Below are positions 3,809 to 31,095 of a stretch of 31,095 nt of DNA, in pieces. The notes beneath the pieces were generated by a model. It did no database searches. It was not told the DNA's origin and was given only the letters and a program-made list of their open reading frames with translations. The DNA lies in the IMG/VR virus record IMGVR_UViG_3300049259_000082, positions 1 to 31,095 of that record; one strand, written 5' to 3'. This DNA is from a virus. A program made the translations under genes and the position numbers. Within the stretch, counting starts at the first letter, position 1. The number at the start of each line of letters is the position of its first letter.

Positions 3809-4017
3809 GCCGGCGCCTCGTCACGCTGCTTCGGGCGGGCCGCGACCCAACAGCCTGGCCAGTAGAACACTGTCAGCCACCGGTTGCCGTCGAGGAGACG
3901 CAGCACGAACGACTGCGTCGTCGACGTCATGCCCATGATCCGGCACCACCGACCCTGCCAGCGGATCTCGTCGCCGACGTCGAGGGCCTCCGGGCGGAAG
4001 TCGCGATCGTCGCTCAC
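3805..4017 (-). CDS. Small beta-rich hypothetical protein (70 aa)
   Basis: The start is GTG 4017, which overlaps the clamp gene's TGA (GTGA). A longer start inside the clamp gene is possible but less likely. The sequence alternates short hydrophobic strands (DEIRWQGRWCRIMGM, SFVLRLLDGNRWLTVFYW) as in small SH3-like or OB-like barrels. No family is recognised. It is directly coupled to the sliding-clamp gene upstream and to the deoxyribosyltransferase-like gene downstream. Confidence 0.65.
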   Translation of the reverse strand: MSDDRDFRPEALDVGDEIRWQGRWCRIMGMTSTTQSFVLRLLDGNRWLTVFYWPGCWVAARPKQRDEAPA

Positions 4018-5087
4018 TTCGTCACGCCGATCCTCACCGGCATGACCAGAAGCAGCACACGCCAATCCGCCGATCGGGCGACGATCGGCTTCAACGCATC
4101 CTCGATCTCGAACTTCACCTCGTCGCCATCAACGGCCGCCAACAGATCGGCAAGGAACCGATCGTGAAAGCGCAGCGGTTCCGTCCAGTCGCCGCCGCAT
4201 TCGATCTCGTCGCAGATGTCGCCCACATCGACGCTCGCCGCCGACAGTCGCAACGTGTTGCCTTCACGATGCAGGTCAACCGGATGTGTGAGATCGCCTT
4301 CGGCGAACAGGCTCACCCGATCCAGCGCGTCGACGATCGCCGCACGCGGCACCGTCAACTCGTGCGCCGACTCTTTGCGGATCAGCGGCTCCCAATTCAC
4401 GAACTCGCCGACCACCAACCGCGACGTCCAGCAGATCCCGCCGCCGTCGAACGTGACGGAACGTTCGTCGAACGTCATCGTCACGCCTTCCGGTGATGCC
4501 TTCAGAACCCGTCGCATCACCTCGAGCGGCACGGTCATGCCGGGAAGACCGTCGACACCCAGCTGGGCGACCGCCAACCGGTGCGGGTCGACTCCGACCG
4601 CCTGGTTGCCGACGAAATGCACGCCGCCGAGCCCAGGCCGGTTCTTCACCGCATCGCCTTGGGCGACAGCGTGCAGCGTGCGGTTGATGCGGTCGAGGTC
4701 GTTGGCTCCCAGCTCGAACCGTTCGCCTTCGGCGTTCGGCGTTTTCGGCCAGTCCTCCACTCGCAGCGTGCGCAATGTGGCGACCGTCGAACCCGACTCG
4801 ATCGTGGCCGAGTCGTCGGTCGCTTCGATCGACACGATGTCGCCGGCCGCCTTGTCGACGATGCCCGACAGCAGCCGGGTGGGAACGATCACAATGCCGG
4901 GCTTGTCGACGTCCACCTCGATGTCGACGGCGATCGTCAGATCGAGGTTCGTCGACGTCAACGTCGCAGCGGCCTTCGCCGCCTCGATGTGAACGCCGCC
5001 CAAGATCGCCAGATGCCCGTTGGCGGCCGGCACGGTGACGGTCTTGAGGGCGTTGGCGAGCGTCTTGCGGTCGGCTCGAATCTTCAT
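4014..5087 (-). CDS. dnaN-like: DNA polymerase III beta sliding clamp (DnaN-like)
   Basis: The 357-residue protein is close to the usual beta-clamp length (about 365-380). It begins MKIRADRKTLANALKTV and has the three-part repeat of the clamp: ILGGVHIEA and LTSTNLDLTIAVDIEV in domain 1, RPGLGGVHFVG with DPHRLAVAQL in domain 2, and VLLLVMPVRIG at the C-terminus, matching the conserved LxMPxR end. The clamp is a ring that tethers polymerase and other proteins to DNA. ATG 5087 overlaps the upstream stop. A phage-borne clamp is uncommon in siphophages. No polymerase is in the window, so it may serve a polymerase encoded further left or the host enzyme. Confidence 0.9.
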   Translation of the reverse strand: MKIRADRKTLANALKTVTVPAANGHLAILGGVHIEAAKAAATLTSTNLDLTIAVDIEVDVDKPGIVIVPTRLLSGIVDKAAGDIVSIEATDDSATIESGSTVATLRTLRVEDWPKTPNAEGERFELGANDLDRINRTLHAVAQGDAVKNRPGLGGVHFVGNQAVGVDPHRLAVAQLGVDGLPGMTVPLEVMRRVLKASPEGVTMTFDERSVTFDGGGICWTSRLVVGEFVNWEPLIRKESAHELTVPRAAIVDALDRVSLFAEGDLTHPVDLHREGNTLRLSAASVDVGDICDEIECGGDWTEPLRFHDRFLADLLAAVDGDEVKFEIEDALKPIVARSADWRVLLLVMPVRIGVTK

Positions 5088-10836: not shown

Positions 10837-11169
10837 ATGAACGATGATCTGTACGCCCGTCGCCGAACGAGCGGCACGGCGCTCATGGTGATCGCCGCCG
10901 TCATCCTCGTGCTCGGCATGTTCCTCTGGATTCACTCGACGAGCAGAGCGAGCGACCAACGACGCGACCGGCAACTGCTCGCTGCGATGGAAGGACGCGA
11001 CGCCTCGAACATCCATGTCGAGCCGAATCGAGCTCCCGCCCTCGCGGCTTGGGCGGTCGGGGCGGTCGGGCTTCTCGCCGGCATCGCCTTGTACGCCTCG
11101 GCACCGCCTCACACCGACGATCAAGCTCCGATCGCAGCGCCGAAGGATGCGACCGACGGCTGGTCCTAG
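10837..11169 (+). CDS. Two-span membrane protein next to integrase (110 aa)
   Basis: ATG 10837 has a strong GGAGG upstream. Two hydrophobic helices (TALMVIAAVILVLGMFLWI and AAWAVGAVGLLAGIALYA) are separated by a charged loop with a basic stretch (SDQRRDRQLLAAMEGRD). Lysogeny-region proteins of this type often change the cell envelope or exclude other phages, but no family is recognised. It is cotranscribed with or independent of the repressor (151-base gap) and its stop overlaps that of Int1, so the two genes converge. Confidence 0.6.
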   Translation: MNDDLYARRRTSGTALMVIAAVILVLGMFLWIHSTSRASDQRRDRQLLAAMEGRDASNIHVEPNRAPALAAWAVGAVGLLAGIALYASAPPHTDDQAPIAAPKDATDGWS

Positions 11170-12062
11170 AGCATGTCGCCCAAGCTCAACGATCGATGTG
11201 CGTTGCGCGCCCGTTCGGCCGCGGCCGACTTGCCGTAACGATCCAGCATCGACCTCGAGCGCCATCCGGCGATCTGCATCAGGTCACCCTCCTTGCCGCC
11301 CTCCGCCAACCACTGATGCGCGAACGTGTGCCGGAACTGGTGCGGATGCACCTCAATGCCGACCGACCGGGCCCGGCGCTTCACGATCTGATACACGCCT
11401 GAGTTGGTGAGTCCGCCTTTCCCTTTCGCGCCGAGCCACAACAGATCCGTCATGTCGGCGAGACGATGGCGTCTTCGAATGCGGATGTAGCGGTCGATCG
11501 CCTGGGCGGTCTTCGCTCCGAACGGCACGATCCGCTCGCGGCGACCTTTGCCGATGACGGTCGCGCGGAAGCCGCGCAGGTCGACGGCGGCGACGGTGAT
11601 GTGGGCCATCTCGTCGAGTCGCACACCGGCGTCGAAGAAGAGTCGGAGGATCGCTGCGTCGCGCCGGTCGGCGAAGTCGGTGCCCGAACAGGTCTTCAAG
11701 ATGCGGCGGGCGTCGTCGAGGTCGATGACCGGCACCGGCTTCTCCGGCACGATCGGTGTTTCCATGCCGGCCATCGGATCGGCCGGGATCTCGTCTTCGG
11801 CGACCAGCCATTTGAACAGCTGCTGTAACGCCCGGAAGCGAAAGGAGACGGTCGCAGGTGCATGCAGGTGGGCCTGCTCGGCGAGGTAGCGAAGGATGTG
11901 CTCACGGCTGATGGCAGCGAGCTCGTCGACGTCGGCGTGGCGGACCAGCTGCCCGGCCGAGTCGGTGTATGAGCCGATCGTCTTGTCGGCGAGGTTGCGT
12001 GCACGCATCGAAAGCTCCCAGGACGCGAGCATGTCGAGGGTGAGCGGTGGGAGTTCGGCCAT
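11166..12062 (-). CDS. int: Tyrosine integrase Int1 (298 aa)
   Basis: The core-binding domain (about 10-95, with DMLASWELSMRARNLADKTI) is followed by the catalytic domain: Arg148 in FFDAGVRLDEM, Lys172 in GKGRRERIVPF, His241-x-x-Arg244 in HQFRHTFAHQ, Trp267 in IAGWRSR and Tyr276 in MLDRYGKS. All the expected catalytic residues are present. The start at ATG 12062 lies 118 bases from the tRNA-derived attachment core, so it is the cognate enzyme. It probably recombines the phage into the 3' half of a host tRNA-Arg(UCU). Confidence 0.95.
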   Translation of the reverse strand: MAELPPLTLDMLASWELSMRARNLADKTIGSYTDSAGQLVRHADVDELAAISREHILRYLAEQAHLHAPATVSFRFRALQQLFKWLVAEDEIPADPMAGMETPIVPEKPVPVIDLDDARRILKTCSGTDFADRRDAAILRLFFDAGVRLDEMAHITVAAVDLRGFRATVIGKGRRERIVPFGAKTAQAIDRYIRIRRRHRLADMTDLLWLGAKGKGGLTNSGVYQIVKRRARSVGIEVHPHQFRHTFAHQWLAEGGKEGDLMQIAGWRSRSMLDRYGKSAAAERARNAHRSLSLGDML

Positions 12063-25731: not shown

Positions 25732-26165
25732 CAGGCGCTGACCTTGTTCATGCGACCGCTCCTCGATGCAGTGCGCTCGGAGCGGCAGGCTCGGCAATAC
25801 CGACGCCCGCCGTATCGAAGCGTGTTGTCCTCGTCGTACGCATGGCCCGACGGGCAGTGCGTCTTCGCGGCGTGTGCCGCGGGAATCGTCTCGCCGCGCA
25901 TCGTGTTCGTGCGCCACGTCACCGGCTCCAAATGCTCCGGGTTCACGCAGCCATGATTGCGACAGAGATGGTCGAGCGCGAGCCCTTCGGGGATCGGTCC
26001 GACGAAGTGCTCGTACGCCCAACGATGAGCGAGGACGACCTTCTCCCCGTCGAAGAAGGTGCCGTACCCGTCGGCGAGGCGCGCGGCAGTCCACTCCCAG
26101 CATCCGCTGGGCTGGATGGCACGCTTCTCGTCGAAGCGCTCGATCGCCGGGCGTCGAGGCCTCAT
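25731..26165 (-). CDS. HNH endonuclease, HNH_3 type, capsid-region copy (144 aa)
   Basis: A paralogue of the gene at 5428-5829: CWEWTAARLADGYG, AHRWAYEHFVGPIPEGL, LDHLCRNHGCVNPEHLEPV and a zinc tail (THCPSGHAYDEDNT...YCRACRSER). The Asp-His, Asn and His of the HNH core are intact. It interrupts the head operon between the capsid and the accessory head gene, with ATGA and TGATG overlaps. Such genes are mobile and often sit beside conserved genes that they cut in phages lacking them. Confidence 0.88.
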   Translation of the reverse strand: MRPRRPAIERFDEKRAIQPSGCWEWTAARLADGYGTFFDGEKVVLAHRWAYEHFVGPIPEGLALDHLCRNHGCVNPEHLEPVTWRTNTMRGETIPAAHAAKTHCPSGHAYDEDNTLRYGGRRYCRACRSERTASRSGRMNKVSA

Positions 26166-27583
26166 TGAACTTTGAGGTTGCGCAGGACTGCGGCCGCCTT
26201 CGTCGCCTTCAGCACGACGGCGACCGGGCCCATCTCGACCTCACCGGTCTTCACCGCGCCGGCGGTCGTGAAGTCGGGCAGCCACTTCTGGATCAGCGGG
26301 CCGCCCGCCATCGAGATGCCGTGGAAGCCGTCGAGACCGAGCCGCACCGCGTACAGGTCGGTGGTGCCGGTCGTGTTCGCCGTGTTCGCCGACTCGACCG
26401 TGGTCACCGACGGCGTCGTGCCGCCCGTCAGGTTATTGTCGGACAAGGCGACGGTCAGCACTTCGTCGGTGAGCGCACCGCCGAAGGTGACGGTCCATGC
26501 GCCGCCGGCCGAGCCGGTCACCGTCACACCACCGGTCGGGACGATCGTGAGCGCCTCGATCGCCGCCTGCACGGCCGCCGCCGTCGCGTTGTAGGCGATC
26601 GCGGCTGTCTCTTCGGTCGTCCCGTTGTAGGTGACGTTCAGGGAGAACGTGCCGCCGCCAGGGCCGCCGGTGACCGTCACCACATAGACGGTGTTGTCGA
26701 TGTCTCGGGTGACGATCGGAACGATGTCGTCGTTGGTGCCGGACTTCTTGCCCGGGTCGATCAGCACGATGTTGCCGTACCGTTCGATGTTGCGGCCGAA
26801 CTCGTTGCGGTCGCGGGTGAAGTACCCGGCGCGCCGCGCGATCGAGGCGATCTTCAGGAGCGCCTTGCGGTTCGAGATGATCGCCGTCGGCTCCCCGTCC
26901 AGCAGGGCGAGGAACGTATCGAGCGTGTCGAGCGCGGTGAACGAGCCGGCCTCGTCCAGCGCGCTCCAGTCGGTCGCCGTGTCCGCGTTCATCTCGGTGG
27001 CGGTGCCGACGAGCGCCTTGTCGAGCCCGTCGAAGCCGTTGGCGTCCACGTTCGTGTCGCCGTTGATCGCCGAATCCATGAACTGCGTCTGCGTCGCCTT
27101 GATCTTCTGGCTCATCTGCAGGTTGACCTCGCCTGCTGCGACCGAGCCGACGCGGGCGAGCACACGGTCGATCTGGAACGAGCCGCCGAGTGGCTTCAGG
27201 TCCACCGTGTAGCGGGCCTTCGTCACCTCTTGCGGCGTGTACTCGGCGTTGATCGCCCGGAATGCAGCGGTCGGTTGGGTGATCAGCCGGGTGTAGCCGT
27301 AGGTGAGGGTTCCGCCGCCGCCGGCAGGGTTGACGACGTCATCGAACTGCAGCGTGTCGAGAAGCCACGATTCTTTCCGGAACTCGTCGATCACGGCGAC
27401 GTCGATGTCGTCCGTGGCGTTGAGCTTCGCCTGGGCGAGCGTGACAACACCCGCCTCGGAGGCGAACCGGCCGGACGCGACGAACCCGACCCACATGCGA
27501 TGCACATGATGGGAGATGGTCGGCGTGCCCGCTGCGAAAAGCAGCGCGAGCCCGAGGAAGGCGATGAGCAGACGAAAGATCAT
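26162..27583 (-). CDS. Major capsid protein with Ig-like insertion and hydrophobic N-terminus (473 aa)
   Basis: The HK97-type capsid parts are seen in AQAKLNATDDIDVAVIDEFR, VVNPAGGGGTLTYGYTRL, FQIDRVLARVGSVAAGEVNL and DGLDKALVGTATEM, then ISNRKALLKIASIARRAGYF. Residues about 297-403 form a beta sandwich (TFSLNVTYNGTTEETAAIA, AWTVTFGGALTDEVLTVAL) inserted near the C-terminus, a domain that in other phages acts as a decoration-like protrusion. The first 45 residues contain a hydrophobic helix (IFRLLIAFLGLALLFAAGT) not usual for capsid proteins; ATG 27583 has a good AGGAG, so this start is real unless translation begins at ATG 27496. Confidence 0.85.
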   Translation of the reverse strand: MIFRLLIAFLGLALLFAAGTPTISHHVHRMWVGFVASGRFASEAGVVTLAQAKLNATDDIDVAVIDEFRKESWLLDTLQFDDVVNPAGGGGTLTYGYTRLITQPTAAFRAINAEYTPQEVTKARYTVDLKPLGGSFQIDRVLARVGSVAAGEVNLQMSQKIKATQTQFMDSAINGDTNVDANGFDGLDKALVGTATEMNADTATDWSALDEAGSFTALDTLDTFLALLDGEPTAIISNRKALLKIASIARRAGYFTRDRNEFGRNIERYGNIVLIDPGKKSGTNDDIVPIVTRDIDNTVYVVTVTGGPGGGTFSLNVTYNGTTEETAAIAYNATAAAVQAAIEALTIVPTGGVTVTGSAGGAWTVTFGGALTDEVLTVALSDNNLTGGTTPSVTTVESANTANTTGTTDLYAVRLGLDGFHGISMAGGPLIQKWLPDFTTAGAVKTGEVEMGPVAVVLKATKAAAVLRNLKVQ

Positions 27584-27596
27584 GCGGAGCTCCTGT

Positions 27597-28433
27597 TCAG
27601 GAGTAGTGGGCTGAGATGGCGTCGGCGAGGGACTTCGGCTTGTCGCCGTTCCCGTTGCCGTTGTCGCCGAGGTCGTTGCCGCTCCGGACCGCCTGGGTCG
27701 CCTTGAGCTTCGGGTTCTTCTCGACCGCTTCCTTGACTGCCGACTCCAGGTCGGCGGTGAACGTGTCGTTGGCAGGGTCGAGCTTGTCGAGCGCGCCGCC
27801 GGACCGGAGGACCGCCAGGGTCAATTCCGGATCGGCCTTGTGCTTGCTTGCGGCCGCACTGAAGGCGGCATCGATCTTCAACTGCCGGTTCTCACCGGCG
27901 AGCTTGTCGCGTTCGGCGGTTGCCGCTTCGGCGATCTTCGCCGGGTCGGAGTCATCGGCGAGGCCGAAATGCTTGTGCAGCGCAGCCATCTGCGACTTGA
28001 GGGTCGTCAGTTCGGCGGCGGTGCCGTTTCGTTCGGTGCGGTACTTGCCGGCTTCCTTCCGGGCCTTCGAGAACTCGTCGACCGCCCGCTGCAAGGCGGC
28101 CGGGATTTCGGCGCCTGCCGCCTTCAGGGCGTCGATCGCGGCGCGGGCGTCGGCTTCGAGCGTCGAACCACCATCGCCGCCGTCCCCGGAACCACCATCG
28201 CCGGAACCGCCGTCGCCACCGTCACCGATTCCACCGTCACCCGCTCCCCCATCGTCGTTGCCTTCGAAGAAGACGGGCGGCTCGCCGAGCCGGAAGGCTC
28301 CGAGACTGTCACCCAAGCGGAGAGCGAAACGCTCGTACCGGTCGGCGCAGGTGGGTGAGATGATGGCGGCGAGGAACACGATGACCGCGCTCAAGGCCGC
28401 CAGGGCCGAGATGAAGCGGAGCAGGTCTGTCAC
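27597..28433 (-). CDS. Scaffolding protein with N-terminal membrane-like helix and Gly/Asp repeat (278 aa)
   Basis: The C-terminal two thirds are the expected scaffold: a long charged coiled coil (ARKEAGKYRTERNGTAAEL... RDKLAGENRQLKIDAAF) and an acidic, Asn/Gly-rich end (GNDLGDNGNGNGDKPKSL). It is preceded by a Gly/Asp-rich run (about 58-90; DNA 28164-28262) and a hydrophobic segment (FISALAALSAVIVFLAAIIS). Scaffolds guide capsid assembly and are usually cytoplasmic, so the membrane-like start is odd. The start GTG 28433 lacks a Shine-Dalgarno sequence and a later TTG is possible. Confidence 0.75.
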   Translation of the reverse strand: MTDLLRFISALAALSAVIVFLAAIISPTCADRYERFALRLGDSLGAFRLGEPPVFFEGNDDGGAGDGGIGDGGDGGSGDGGSGDGGDGGSTLEADARAAIDALKAAGAEIPAALQRAVDEFSKARKEAGKYRTERNGTAAELTTLKSQMAALHKHFGLADDSDPAKIAEAATAERDKLAGENRQLKIDAAFSAAASKHKADPELTLAVLRSGGALDKLDPANDTFTADLESAVKEAVEKNPKLKATQAVRSGNDLGDNGNGNGDKPKSLADAISAHYS

Positions 28434-28474: not shown

Positions 28475-29530
28475 TTAGCGGGCGGAGCCGATCCGCTCGC
28501 GGGCCGGGAGCCGCTTCAGATCGTTGGCGTTGACGTGCTCGCGGAGCCGTGCCTGCCATTGGCGTGCCTTGCCGCGCGCCGACTGCGCTGCCTGACTGTC
28601 GAGGGCGGCGGCTTCGACGCGCTTCCATCGCCGCACGCCGCGCTCGAGGTAGCGCTGCTGTTGGCGTGCACGATCGCCGGCCGGGTCGGCGGTGTCCGTC
28701 AACGGCTTCGTCAACCCTTCGACGAACAAGCCGAGCGCGTGACGGCAGTTGTTGTGGAACAGGCCGGCGGCGGCGGCCGCGTCAACACTCGGATATCGGG
28801 TGTCGTTGCCGGATTGGGAAAGCACTTCGCCTTCCCACGGACGGCACAGCTCGCATTCCCCTCCGGCGTCCGACACGATCACGAGGTCGTAGCCAGCCTC
28901 GTCGAAGCGGTCGAGTGCTCCTTGCACTTGGGCCCGGCCGACCGCGGTGCGGGTGGCCATCTCGGCGTACGACTCGATCTCCCACGCCCGACCTGCCGAA
29001 TCCACGAATCCGGTGATGCCGCGGGCGGCGAACCGGTTGAGCGCCAGCTGGGAGGCTGCACGCCGCGACGCGACCCCGGCGAGAACCTGCGGCGCGCTCG
29101 CTTCGGCGATCGCTTCCCGATAGGCGTCGAGCGTCGAACGCAGAAGGCGAAGATGTGTCTTCGACACCGTCGACACGGTTTCGCCGACGAGCGCTTCGAT
29201 GGCGCGGCGTTGCGAACCGACGAACTCGATCCGCACATCGATCGACGCGAGGTCGCGGATCGCCTCACGTGCGCCTGCATCGGCGCCACCTTTGACGGCT
29301 GTTTCGACGGCCGGGTCGAGGAGGTTGTGGAGGCGTTCGACTTCGGCGAGGGCTTCGCGGCGCAGCTGGTCGAGCTGCGCCAGCTTCCGTTCCGCCCATC
29401 CCGCGTCTTCGATGCCGTCGCCGAGCCGGCGGGCCACCAGGCGCAGCAGCGAGGCGGTGGCGTCGCCGTACAGGTCGGCGACCGCTTTGGCGAGTCGGAG
29501 CCCGAGCTCTGGATCGGGCCGCGCCGGCAT
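28475..29530 (-). CDS. Minor head protein, Phage_min_cap2 type (351 aa)
   Basis: Besides long helices (residues 1-170) the protein has YDLVIVSDAGGECELCRPWEG with a conserved Cys pair, then NCRHALGLFVEG after GLFHNN. This is the C-terminal signature of Phage_min_cap2 (MuF-related) minor head proteins, which lie next to the portal in the head. The start is ATG 29530. An in-frame TGA lies eight codons upstream. A portal gene is expected directly before it, but Int2 is there instead. Confidence 0.85.
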   Translation of the reverse strand: MPARPDPELGLRLAKAVADLYGDATASLLRLVARRLGDGIEDAGWAERKLAQLDQLRREALAEVERLHNLLDPAVETAVKGGADAGAREAIRDLASIDVRIEFVGSQRRAIEALVGETVSTVSKTHLRLLRSTLDAYREAIAEASAPQVLAGVASRRAASQLALNRFAARGITGFVDSAGRAWEIESYAEMATRTAVGRAQVQGALDRFDEAGYDLVIVSDAGGECELCRPWEGEVLSQSGNDTRYPSVDAAAAAGLFHNNCRHALGLFVEGLTKPLTDTADPAGDRARQQQRYLERGVRRWKRVEAAALDSQAAQSARGKARQWQARLREHVNANDLKRLPARERIGSAR

Positions 29531-29564
29531 GGGCGGCAGTATCGGCGTCCGTCACGAACCGCTG

Positions 29565-30479
29565 TCAGGCGAGTTCTCTGACGAGGGCGTAGGCGGCGTG
29601 CCGGTCGATCGAGCCGCGGGAGCGGTCGTAGCGCACCTTCGAGCGCGGGTCGAGGTGGCGGGCGAACGCTTGGATGTCGCGGTCGGAGGCGCCGGTCTCG
29701 GCGAGCGCGGTGATTCCGGAGTGGCGGATCGAGTGGGGCGAGATGTGCTTGGTGATGCCGGCGGCGCGGGCGATGCGTAGAACCGAGCGGGCGATGTTGA
29801 TCCGGGTCGACCTGTTGCCGTAGCGGTTGAGGACGAGCGGGCCCGAGGTCCGGCCGTCGAGGACCTTCGTGATGGTTTGCATGGTGCGGGGCGGGAGCGG
29901 GACGGTCGCCGCCTGCGAGCCCTTCCCGATGAAGCGGACGGTCGTGTGGTAGCGGTCGTTGCCGATCGACTCGACGTCGAGGGAGCAGAGCTCGCCGACT
30001 CGGAGTCCGTTGAGCCCGAGGACCAGGGCGACGATGGCGTCGCTTCCGCCGAGCTTCTCTCCGGCGTCGATCCAGTCGGCCAGCTGGCGGCGGGTGAGCC
30101 ACGGCGTCGACGACTCGGTCGGGATCTTCGGTCGCTTCACGCGGCGGGTCGGGTTCCGGTCGAGGTACTCCTCGTCGACGAGCCATTCGTAGTAGCGGGC
30201 GAGCGTCCCGATCCGCCGGCCGATGGTGCTCTCCTTGCGGCCGTCGGCTTCCATGCGGCGGACGAAGAGGTCGACGTGGCTCCGGCCGACCTCGCGGATC
30301 GGGTCGGTGACGTGGCACTCGTCGAGCCATTGGAGCCAGAGCTTGAGGTCGGTGACGTAGGCGTTGCGGGTGAGCGGGTTTGAGTAGCCGGCGAGGAAGG
30401 CGCTGACGGTGAACTCGGCCTGCCTCCACTGTGACGGTTCGCGGTCCGGTACGGGCGGGCGCGTAGCTTCGATGAGCAC
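29565..30479 (-). CDS. Second tyrosine recombinase Int2 (304 aa)
   Basis: A complete XerC/D-like recombinase: N-terminal SAM-like domain (LTRNAYVTDLKLWLQWLDE) and catalytic domain with Arg160 in GLNGLRVGEL, Lys186 in FIGKGSQA, His249-x-x-Arg252 in HSIRHSGI, His275 in ARHLDPRS and Tyr284 in KVRYDR. The GTG start at 30479 has a strong AGGAGG eight bases away. It is not very similar to Int1. Its location between the minor head gene and a truncated tail-like gene suggests it marks an element boundary. Confidence 0.92.
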   Translation of the reverse strand: MLIEATRPPVPDREPSQWRQAEFTVSAFLAGYSNPLTRNAYVTDLKLWLQWLDECHVTDPIREVGRSHVDLFVRRMEADGRKESTIGRRIGTLARYYEWLVDEEYLDRNPTRRVKRPKIPTESSTPWLTRRQLADWIDAGEKLGGSDAIVALVLGLNGLRVGELCSLDVESIGNDRYHTTVRFIGKGSQAATVPLPPRTMQTITKVLDGRTSGPLVLNRYGNRSTRINIARSVLRIARAAGITKHISPHSIRHSGITALAETGASDRDIQAFARHLDPRSKVRYDRSRGSIDRHAAYALVRELA

Positions 30480-30629
30480 GACGGGGACCTCCTTGATAGG
30501 TCGTCGTCCAGGCTCCCGTCAGGTGTTGACGCACCGGCGGGGGCCGCTTCGGTTGTGAGGCGCTCAGGGTGACGGATCGCCGCCTACGACGTCAAGGCAT
30601 TCCGCCCGCGAACAGGCGATATCGATCGG

Positions 30630-31095
30630 TCAGGCGAGGTCGGCCGACGCGGTGAACTGGATGAAGAACGACACCGCGTAGAGGCCGCCGGCGGTCGTGA
30701 AGATCCCGCCGTCGAGCGGCTGCCAGTCGAGGTCCGTGCCCGCCCCGGCCGTCTCGTCCTCGGTGTCGAGAACCAGGGGCATGACCGGTGTCGCGGAGGT
30801 CAGCGCGAGGCCGTCCTCTAGGGCGCTGGCCTTGCGTTCCGTCCCGTCAGGGCTGGCCACGTTGACCTCGGCGTAGGCGATCTCCAGCGTCCCGGTGGTG
30901 AACGCGGGCGGGTCCACTCGCAGCCAGAACGTGTGGCCGGCGTCGTACTGCCACGGGACCGTGCATCCGCTGATGATGTTGAACTGCGAGCCGCCGCCCG
31001 GAATCAGAACGCAGGTCGCCTGGTAGCCGCCGGCGATGGGCGACCCGCCGATGTGGGTGGACGCGATGAGCGGGGCGGCCGATGCACTTGTGCCG
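30630..31095 (-). CDS. Partial tail-type protein ending in a C1q-like domain start
   Basis: The reading frame is open to the right window edge, so the start is missing. The visible 154 codons encode a beta-rich protein (HTFWLRVDPPAFTTGTLEIA) with WQPLDGGIFTTAGGLYAVSF close to the end, the beginning of a C1q/TNF-like fold used in phage tail tips and fibres. The stop comes only nine residues after this, about 80 residues too early for the usual domain. Either the domain is an unusually short form or the gene has been cut at a junction with Int2. Confidence 0.6.
   Translation of the reverse strand, partial: GTSASAAPLIASTHIGGSPIAGGYQATCVLIPGGGSQFNIISGCTVPWQYDAGHTFWLRVDPPAFTTGTLEIAYAEVNVASPDGTERKASALEDGLALTSATPVMPLVLDTEDETAGAGTDLDWQPLDGGIFTTAGGLYAVSFFIQFTASADLA

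Follow-up and report, generated by a model that had tools for sequence, protein, structure and literature searches.

The DNA analysed here (the window) makes up one entire IMG/VR virus record (31,095 bases, classed as linear) and breaks off at its right end inside a gene that we call S. We consider it very probable that the break is a contig end beyond which the phage (phage 1) continues on a second, 4,788-bp contig (L004), that S and a tyrosine recombinase, Int2, form an insertion in the phage 1 head operon, and that Int2 is an accessory recombinase. Phage 1 is a siphovirus of high GC content (67%), and its capsid and minor head genes have relatives in Streptomyces, Gordonia and Rhodococcus phages. 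Elsewhere in the window, positions 4014–5087 resemble, when read by eye, a phage-encoded DNA polymerase sliding clamp.

The right end of the window lies at a branch of the assembly graph

Since the window is the whole 31,095-base record, its right end is the end of a contig, and the S gene is cut there by the contig end and not by a junction. The earlier note on this DNA had described a minor head gene at 28475–29530, a second tyrosine recombinase beside it and, 150 bases further, the 3′ end of another gene, and all three were recovered. The minor head gene, on the minus strand, encodes a MuF-type protein (PF06152, E = 2.7e-59; phrog_581; relatives in Raleigh, SV1, GMA1 and Jace), the recombinase is Int2, with intact catalytic residues, and the third is the S reading frame (30630–31094, minus strand), open at the contig end and 150 bp from Int2. 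The note also held, correctly, that the window lacks portal and terminase genes; it contains no match to the families carried by relatives (phrog_533 and phrog_2, respectively). Its suggestion that, with these genes missing, the phage DNA meets a different element did not survive, as L004 carries them and overlaps the window exactly over 127 bases.

We scanned the 154-residue S fragment against viral contigs and found three matching contigs, all from sample 3300049259. L004 and a second contig (L005, contig 000240; 13,613 bp) both end in the exact 127-mer at window positions 30969–31095 (minus strand), and the third (L006; 40,896 bp) starts with 116 bases identical to window positions 30728–30613 and then diverges. 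An exact end overlap of 127 bases is what a k = 127 assembly graph would leave at a branch. These overlaps show that the assembler stopped inside the S gene on meeting sequence common to two phages. Tetranucleotide profiles pair L004 with the window and contig 000240 with the contig of L006. Phage 1 is thus L004, S and the window, and the second phage of the sample (phage 2) is contig 000240, S and L006; no read crosses from L004 through S into the window, and the pairing over the 483 bp is based on gene logic, relatives and composition. The far-left 127 bases of L004 (1–127) are exactly common to contig 000240 (L104:13487–13613, minus strand), which indicates a second segment common to both phages upstream of their packaging modules, so the assembly graph is tangled on either side of the packaging module. 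At the left end of the window we detected no exact overlap among viral contigs, and Rfam gave only chance-level matches at the right end.

Two genes separate portal and MuF in an otherwise conventional head module

L004 encodes, in order, a probable small terminase, the large terminase (phrog_2), the portal protein (phrog_533) and the 5′ part of S, which continues in frame from L004 position 4429 in the same orientation as in the window. The L004 portal and the window MuF protein have relatives in the same actinophage clades and in the same numbers (Streptomyces 41, Microbacterium 30, Gordonia 11). Within the window, MuF is followed by a probable scaffold protein (27597–28433, minus strand), assigned from its position and a below-cutoff match to PF06810, and by the major capsid protein (26162–27583, minus strand; phrog_212, E = 1e-67). 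The phage 1 order is accordingly small terminase, large terminase, portal, S, Int2, MuF, scaffold and capsid, and L004 and the window together supply the terminase, portal, MuF, scaffold and capsid genes in the sequence of an SV1/Raleigh-type head module. The packaging and head order is therefore conventional apart from S and Int2 between portal and MuF. The note had named portal and terminase genes to the right of the window, in an uninterrupted operon, as the finding that would undo its reading; they are there, on L004, and this check largely goes against a junction.

The gap between portal and MuF is 1,967 nt in phage 1, compared with a median of 66.5 nt in relatives (74 viral loci). Inserts of ~2–3 kb at the same joint are present in 7 of the 74 loci; those examined contained fibronectin/BppU-type fibre and PhoD genes, glycosyltransferase and sulfotransferase genes, or long frames without assignment, and none contained Int2 or S. 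The joint may be a place that accepts insertions of host-interaction genes, a pattern that supports an adhesin-like nature of S. We conclude that the real features of this region are a two-gene insertion, an adhesin-like C-terminal domain common to a co-resident phage and a misplaced accessory recombinase with a candidate site.

S is common to two unrelated phages of the sample

The segment common to both phages (30613–31095, minus strand; 483 bp) comprises the C-terminal 154 residues of S, the stop codon and 17 further bases. The window thus holds the 3′ two thirds of a fibre/adhesin-like gene (30630–31095, minus strand), continued in frame on L004 and on contig 000240, whose N-terminal stubs differ; the S protein has 232 residues with the L004 start (phage 1) and 187 residues on the phage 2 stub. 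S is identical wherever the contigs overlap, and its middle is covered by one contig only. Apart from the three overlapping contigs, searches of phages, viral contigs and bacterial genomes gave no relatives of S, and Pfam and the PDB gave no match. The C1q-like start that the earlier note had read in this gene found no support: no C1q profile matched up to E = 10, and neither the PDB nor low-threshold BLAST favoured a C1q/TNF-like domain. Structure prediction without an alignment (pLDDT 48.5) was too poor for use or for a fold search. We propose that S encodes a structural protein of the head-fibre or adhesin type, with a C-terminal domain that was probably exchanged recently with the co-resident phage.

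Contig 000240 of phage 2 carries a different terminase, portal, scaffold and capsid, of the Seahorse type, and L006 carries head–tail connectors and then the tail. Phage 2 is unrelated to the phage of the window, and S is mosaic, since both phages carry the identical sequence. Recent exchange between the two phages would be the simplest reading. The motif GATANCGSC at both S borders was noticed post hoc and was set aside. In phage 2, the 13-mer CGCGCCAACGCTG lies in the palindrome of the leader of its Int2-type gene (L013:1729–1741) and again 5 bp behind S (L006:122–134) (6 of 5,000 random pairs). The phage 2 endolysin gene (L013:2664–4475) has an apparent intein, its signature recognized by eye only.

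Two other accounts of the right end deal differently with the sharing of S. If the phage DNA ended in a true junction with another element, the presence of S in another phage and the unusual place of Int2 would be understandable, but the packaging genes follow across the overlap, in frame and in order, and we regard such a junction as extremely improbable. The note's interpretation holds in part: the S and Int2 insertion splits the portal–MuF joint, and S is mosaic. It is also highly improbable that the assembly is chimeric, with S belonging to phage 2 alone and wrongly attached to the window and L004. Contigs do have k-mers in common at branch nodes, and phasing over the 483 bp was not observed; against this, joints between S and DNA specific to phage 1 are present in both L004 and the window, and the reading frame of S continues from an N-terminus specific to L004.

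Int2 belongs to a family of accessory recombinases

Int2 (29565–30479, minus strand; 304 residues) is an arm-less tyrosine recombinase that matches PF00589 (E = 4e-21; 75.9 bits, cut-off 27.1), and its catalytic residues (R160, K186, H249, R252, H275 and Y284) are invariant in the alignment. The other tyrosine recombinase of phage 1, Int1 (11166–12062, minus strand; PF00589), is encoded downstream of the tail genes. Closest to Int2 is the phage 2 copy (72% amino acid identity; dN 0.22, dS 0.78), which lies between a tail-fibre gene and the endolysin gene. The next relatives are second integrases of Gordonia and Arthrobacter phages (35–40% identity), and such relatives are present in more than 100 of these phages. 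The Int2-type gene is directly behind the fibre gene in Mutzi and Utz; other genes intervene in Confidence, Seahorse, Dorito, Bakery, Pipp, Howe and Kiko. A second integrase accompanies it in all nine isolate phages read and in both phages of the sample. DNA homology among these phages begins sharply ~85 nt upstream of the gene, which in the phages read forms a ~1-kb cassette with one conserved palindrome of ~30 bp just upstream. By sequence relationship, the second integrase and the upstream palindrome, Int2 is an Int2-type accessory recombinase.

Relatives of ~305 residues are also found in actinobacterial genomes (L038, L042, L043, L050 and L057). They share ~78–90% DNA identity, which for the most part extends no further than the gene and its immediate surroundings, as would be expected of stand-alone mobile genes. 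The Int2 relatives are a widespread, poorly understood family of phage recombinases. Utz, Howe and Bowser are reported to have two intact integrases each (PMC5559632), and most AY-cluster Arthrobacter phages carry two tyrosine integrases (PMC11993905). For second integrases of Gordonia phages, attachment sites often could not be located and the role was reported as unclear; which recombinase integrates in the two-integrase phages was left open (PMC4982277, PMC5559632).

A conserved palindrome is a candidate recombination site

The palindromic element upstream of Int2 (30503–30554, minus strand) has a GGTG-CGTCAA-CACC core; 10 phages and 7 bacterial loci have it conserved in front of their Int2-type genes. 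It is imperfect, has an asymmetric spacer of 6–7 bases and lies at the upstream border of homology, and each of its four inner pairs shows pairing-preserving changes on both sides. A model of the palindrome found one strong copy per genome in five of five whole phages, always upstream of the Int2-type gene, and all remaining hits were at noise level. Since these genomes contributed to the model, the telling result is that no further copies occur. In a comparison of the DNA behind the fibre gene (L107, L108, L109 and L110), UmaThurman has nearly the same fibre as Utz and Pipp and a different right side; it contains no Int2-type gene in that region and no palindrome copy there. Five phages (Utz, Mutzi, Pipp, Howe and Confidence) have CTACCAA as the spacer, Bakery has its exact inverse, TTGGTAG, and a similar TTGGAG is present in Dorito, Kiko and Seahorse. 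Such a flip is easier to reconcile with a DNA site than with an RNA loop, and replication slippage in the palindrome could also cause it. The palindrome is a candidate recombinase site of Int2-type genes; it could instead be an RNA leader or a regulatory hairpin. A post-stop motif, ACCnnnCSATA, at first stood out as a possible conserved recombination site and was rejected, as its similarity between the phages of the sample and Gordonia phages was not above background; the match between S and the phage 2 tail (p about 0.01) is a weak lead.

Possible roles of Int2

We propose that Int2, an Xer-like (arm-less) tyrosine recombinase, has an accessory role, would travel as a cassette with its own palindromic site and probably recombines DNA at or near this putative site. 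It is probably not the main lysogeny integrase, a role that more likely falls to Int1. The opposite assignment, with Int2 as the working lysogeny integrase and Int1 in another role, seems unlikely to us: both are intact recombinases of about 300 residues and an attP was assigned to Howe gene 36, which is Int2-type, but Int1 occupies the usual place behind the tail genes, and the same attP is absent from Utz and Bowser, with roles left open (PMC5559632). Quite unlikely, in our judgement, is a fibre-switching system in which Int2 swaps C-terminal adhesin cassettes next to S in the manner of the shufflon recombinase Rci. S does stand on two N-terminal stubs in two phages, the Int2-type gene is right behind the fibre gene in phage 2, Mutzi and Utz, and the phage 2 13-mer recurs behind S; moreover, the fibre end is replaced between Pipp and Utz, although the flanking DNA to its left and right is 99.7–99.8% identical, and the replacement ends on the right at the fibre stop codon, which adjoins the Int2-type gene. 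However, a shufflon-like system has at least two copies of its site per genome, and the single palindrome leaves no second site for intramolecular exchange, although another site is conceivable; the post-stop motif common to Gordonia phages is not above background, and breakpoints at gene ends are ordinary mosaicism. It is very unlikely that Int2-type recombinases are dedicated to swapping fibre or adhesin modules between co-resident phages through the upstream palindrome, with S as a recent product. Both the lysogeny and the fibre-switching proposals are compatible with a contig end within S and compete only over the role of Int2.

The junction reading is mostly explained away, and the insertion and the palindrome are worth following. 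Sequence common to co-resident phages breaks assemblies exactly at sites of mosaicism, where the end of a contig may be mistaken for a biological junction. The conserved palindrome upstream of second-integrase genes provides a concrete, testable site in phages such as Utz or Mutzi.

Comparison with known systems

The shufflon recombinase Rci adjoins the adhesin PilV, which has an exchangeable C-terminus, and Int2 likewise lies beside S; in contrast to the shufflon, no repeated sites were found in phage 1. XerC/XerD and the integron integrases have the arm-less architecture of Int2, and the best solved relative is XerD (1a0p), but Int2 scores far under the cut-offs of these families (113 and 107 bits against the XerC and XerD NCBIfam equivalogs, cut-off about 330 bits; 45.7 bits against TIGR02249, cut-off 265 bits). 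SV1/Raleigh-type Streptomyces phages, together with GMA1, Jace and Cumberbatch, have the same terminase–portal–MuF–scaffold–capsid order as phage 1 and related portal, MuF and capsid proteins; unlike in phage 1, their portal adjoins MuF with neither S nor a recombinase in between. The two-integrase Gordonia and Arthrobacter phages (Utz, Howe, Bowser, Mutzi, Confidence and Seahorse; PMC5559632, PMC4982277, PMC11993905) share with phage 1 an Int2-type recombinase, a second integrase and, in those read, the palindromic leader, but their Int2-type gene follows the tail genes or lies close to the immunity genes, whereas that of phage 1 is in the head operon.
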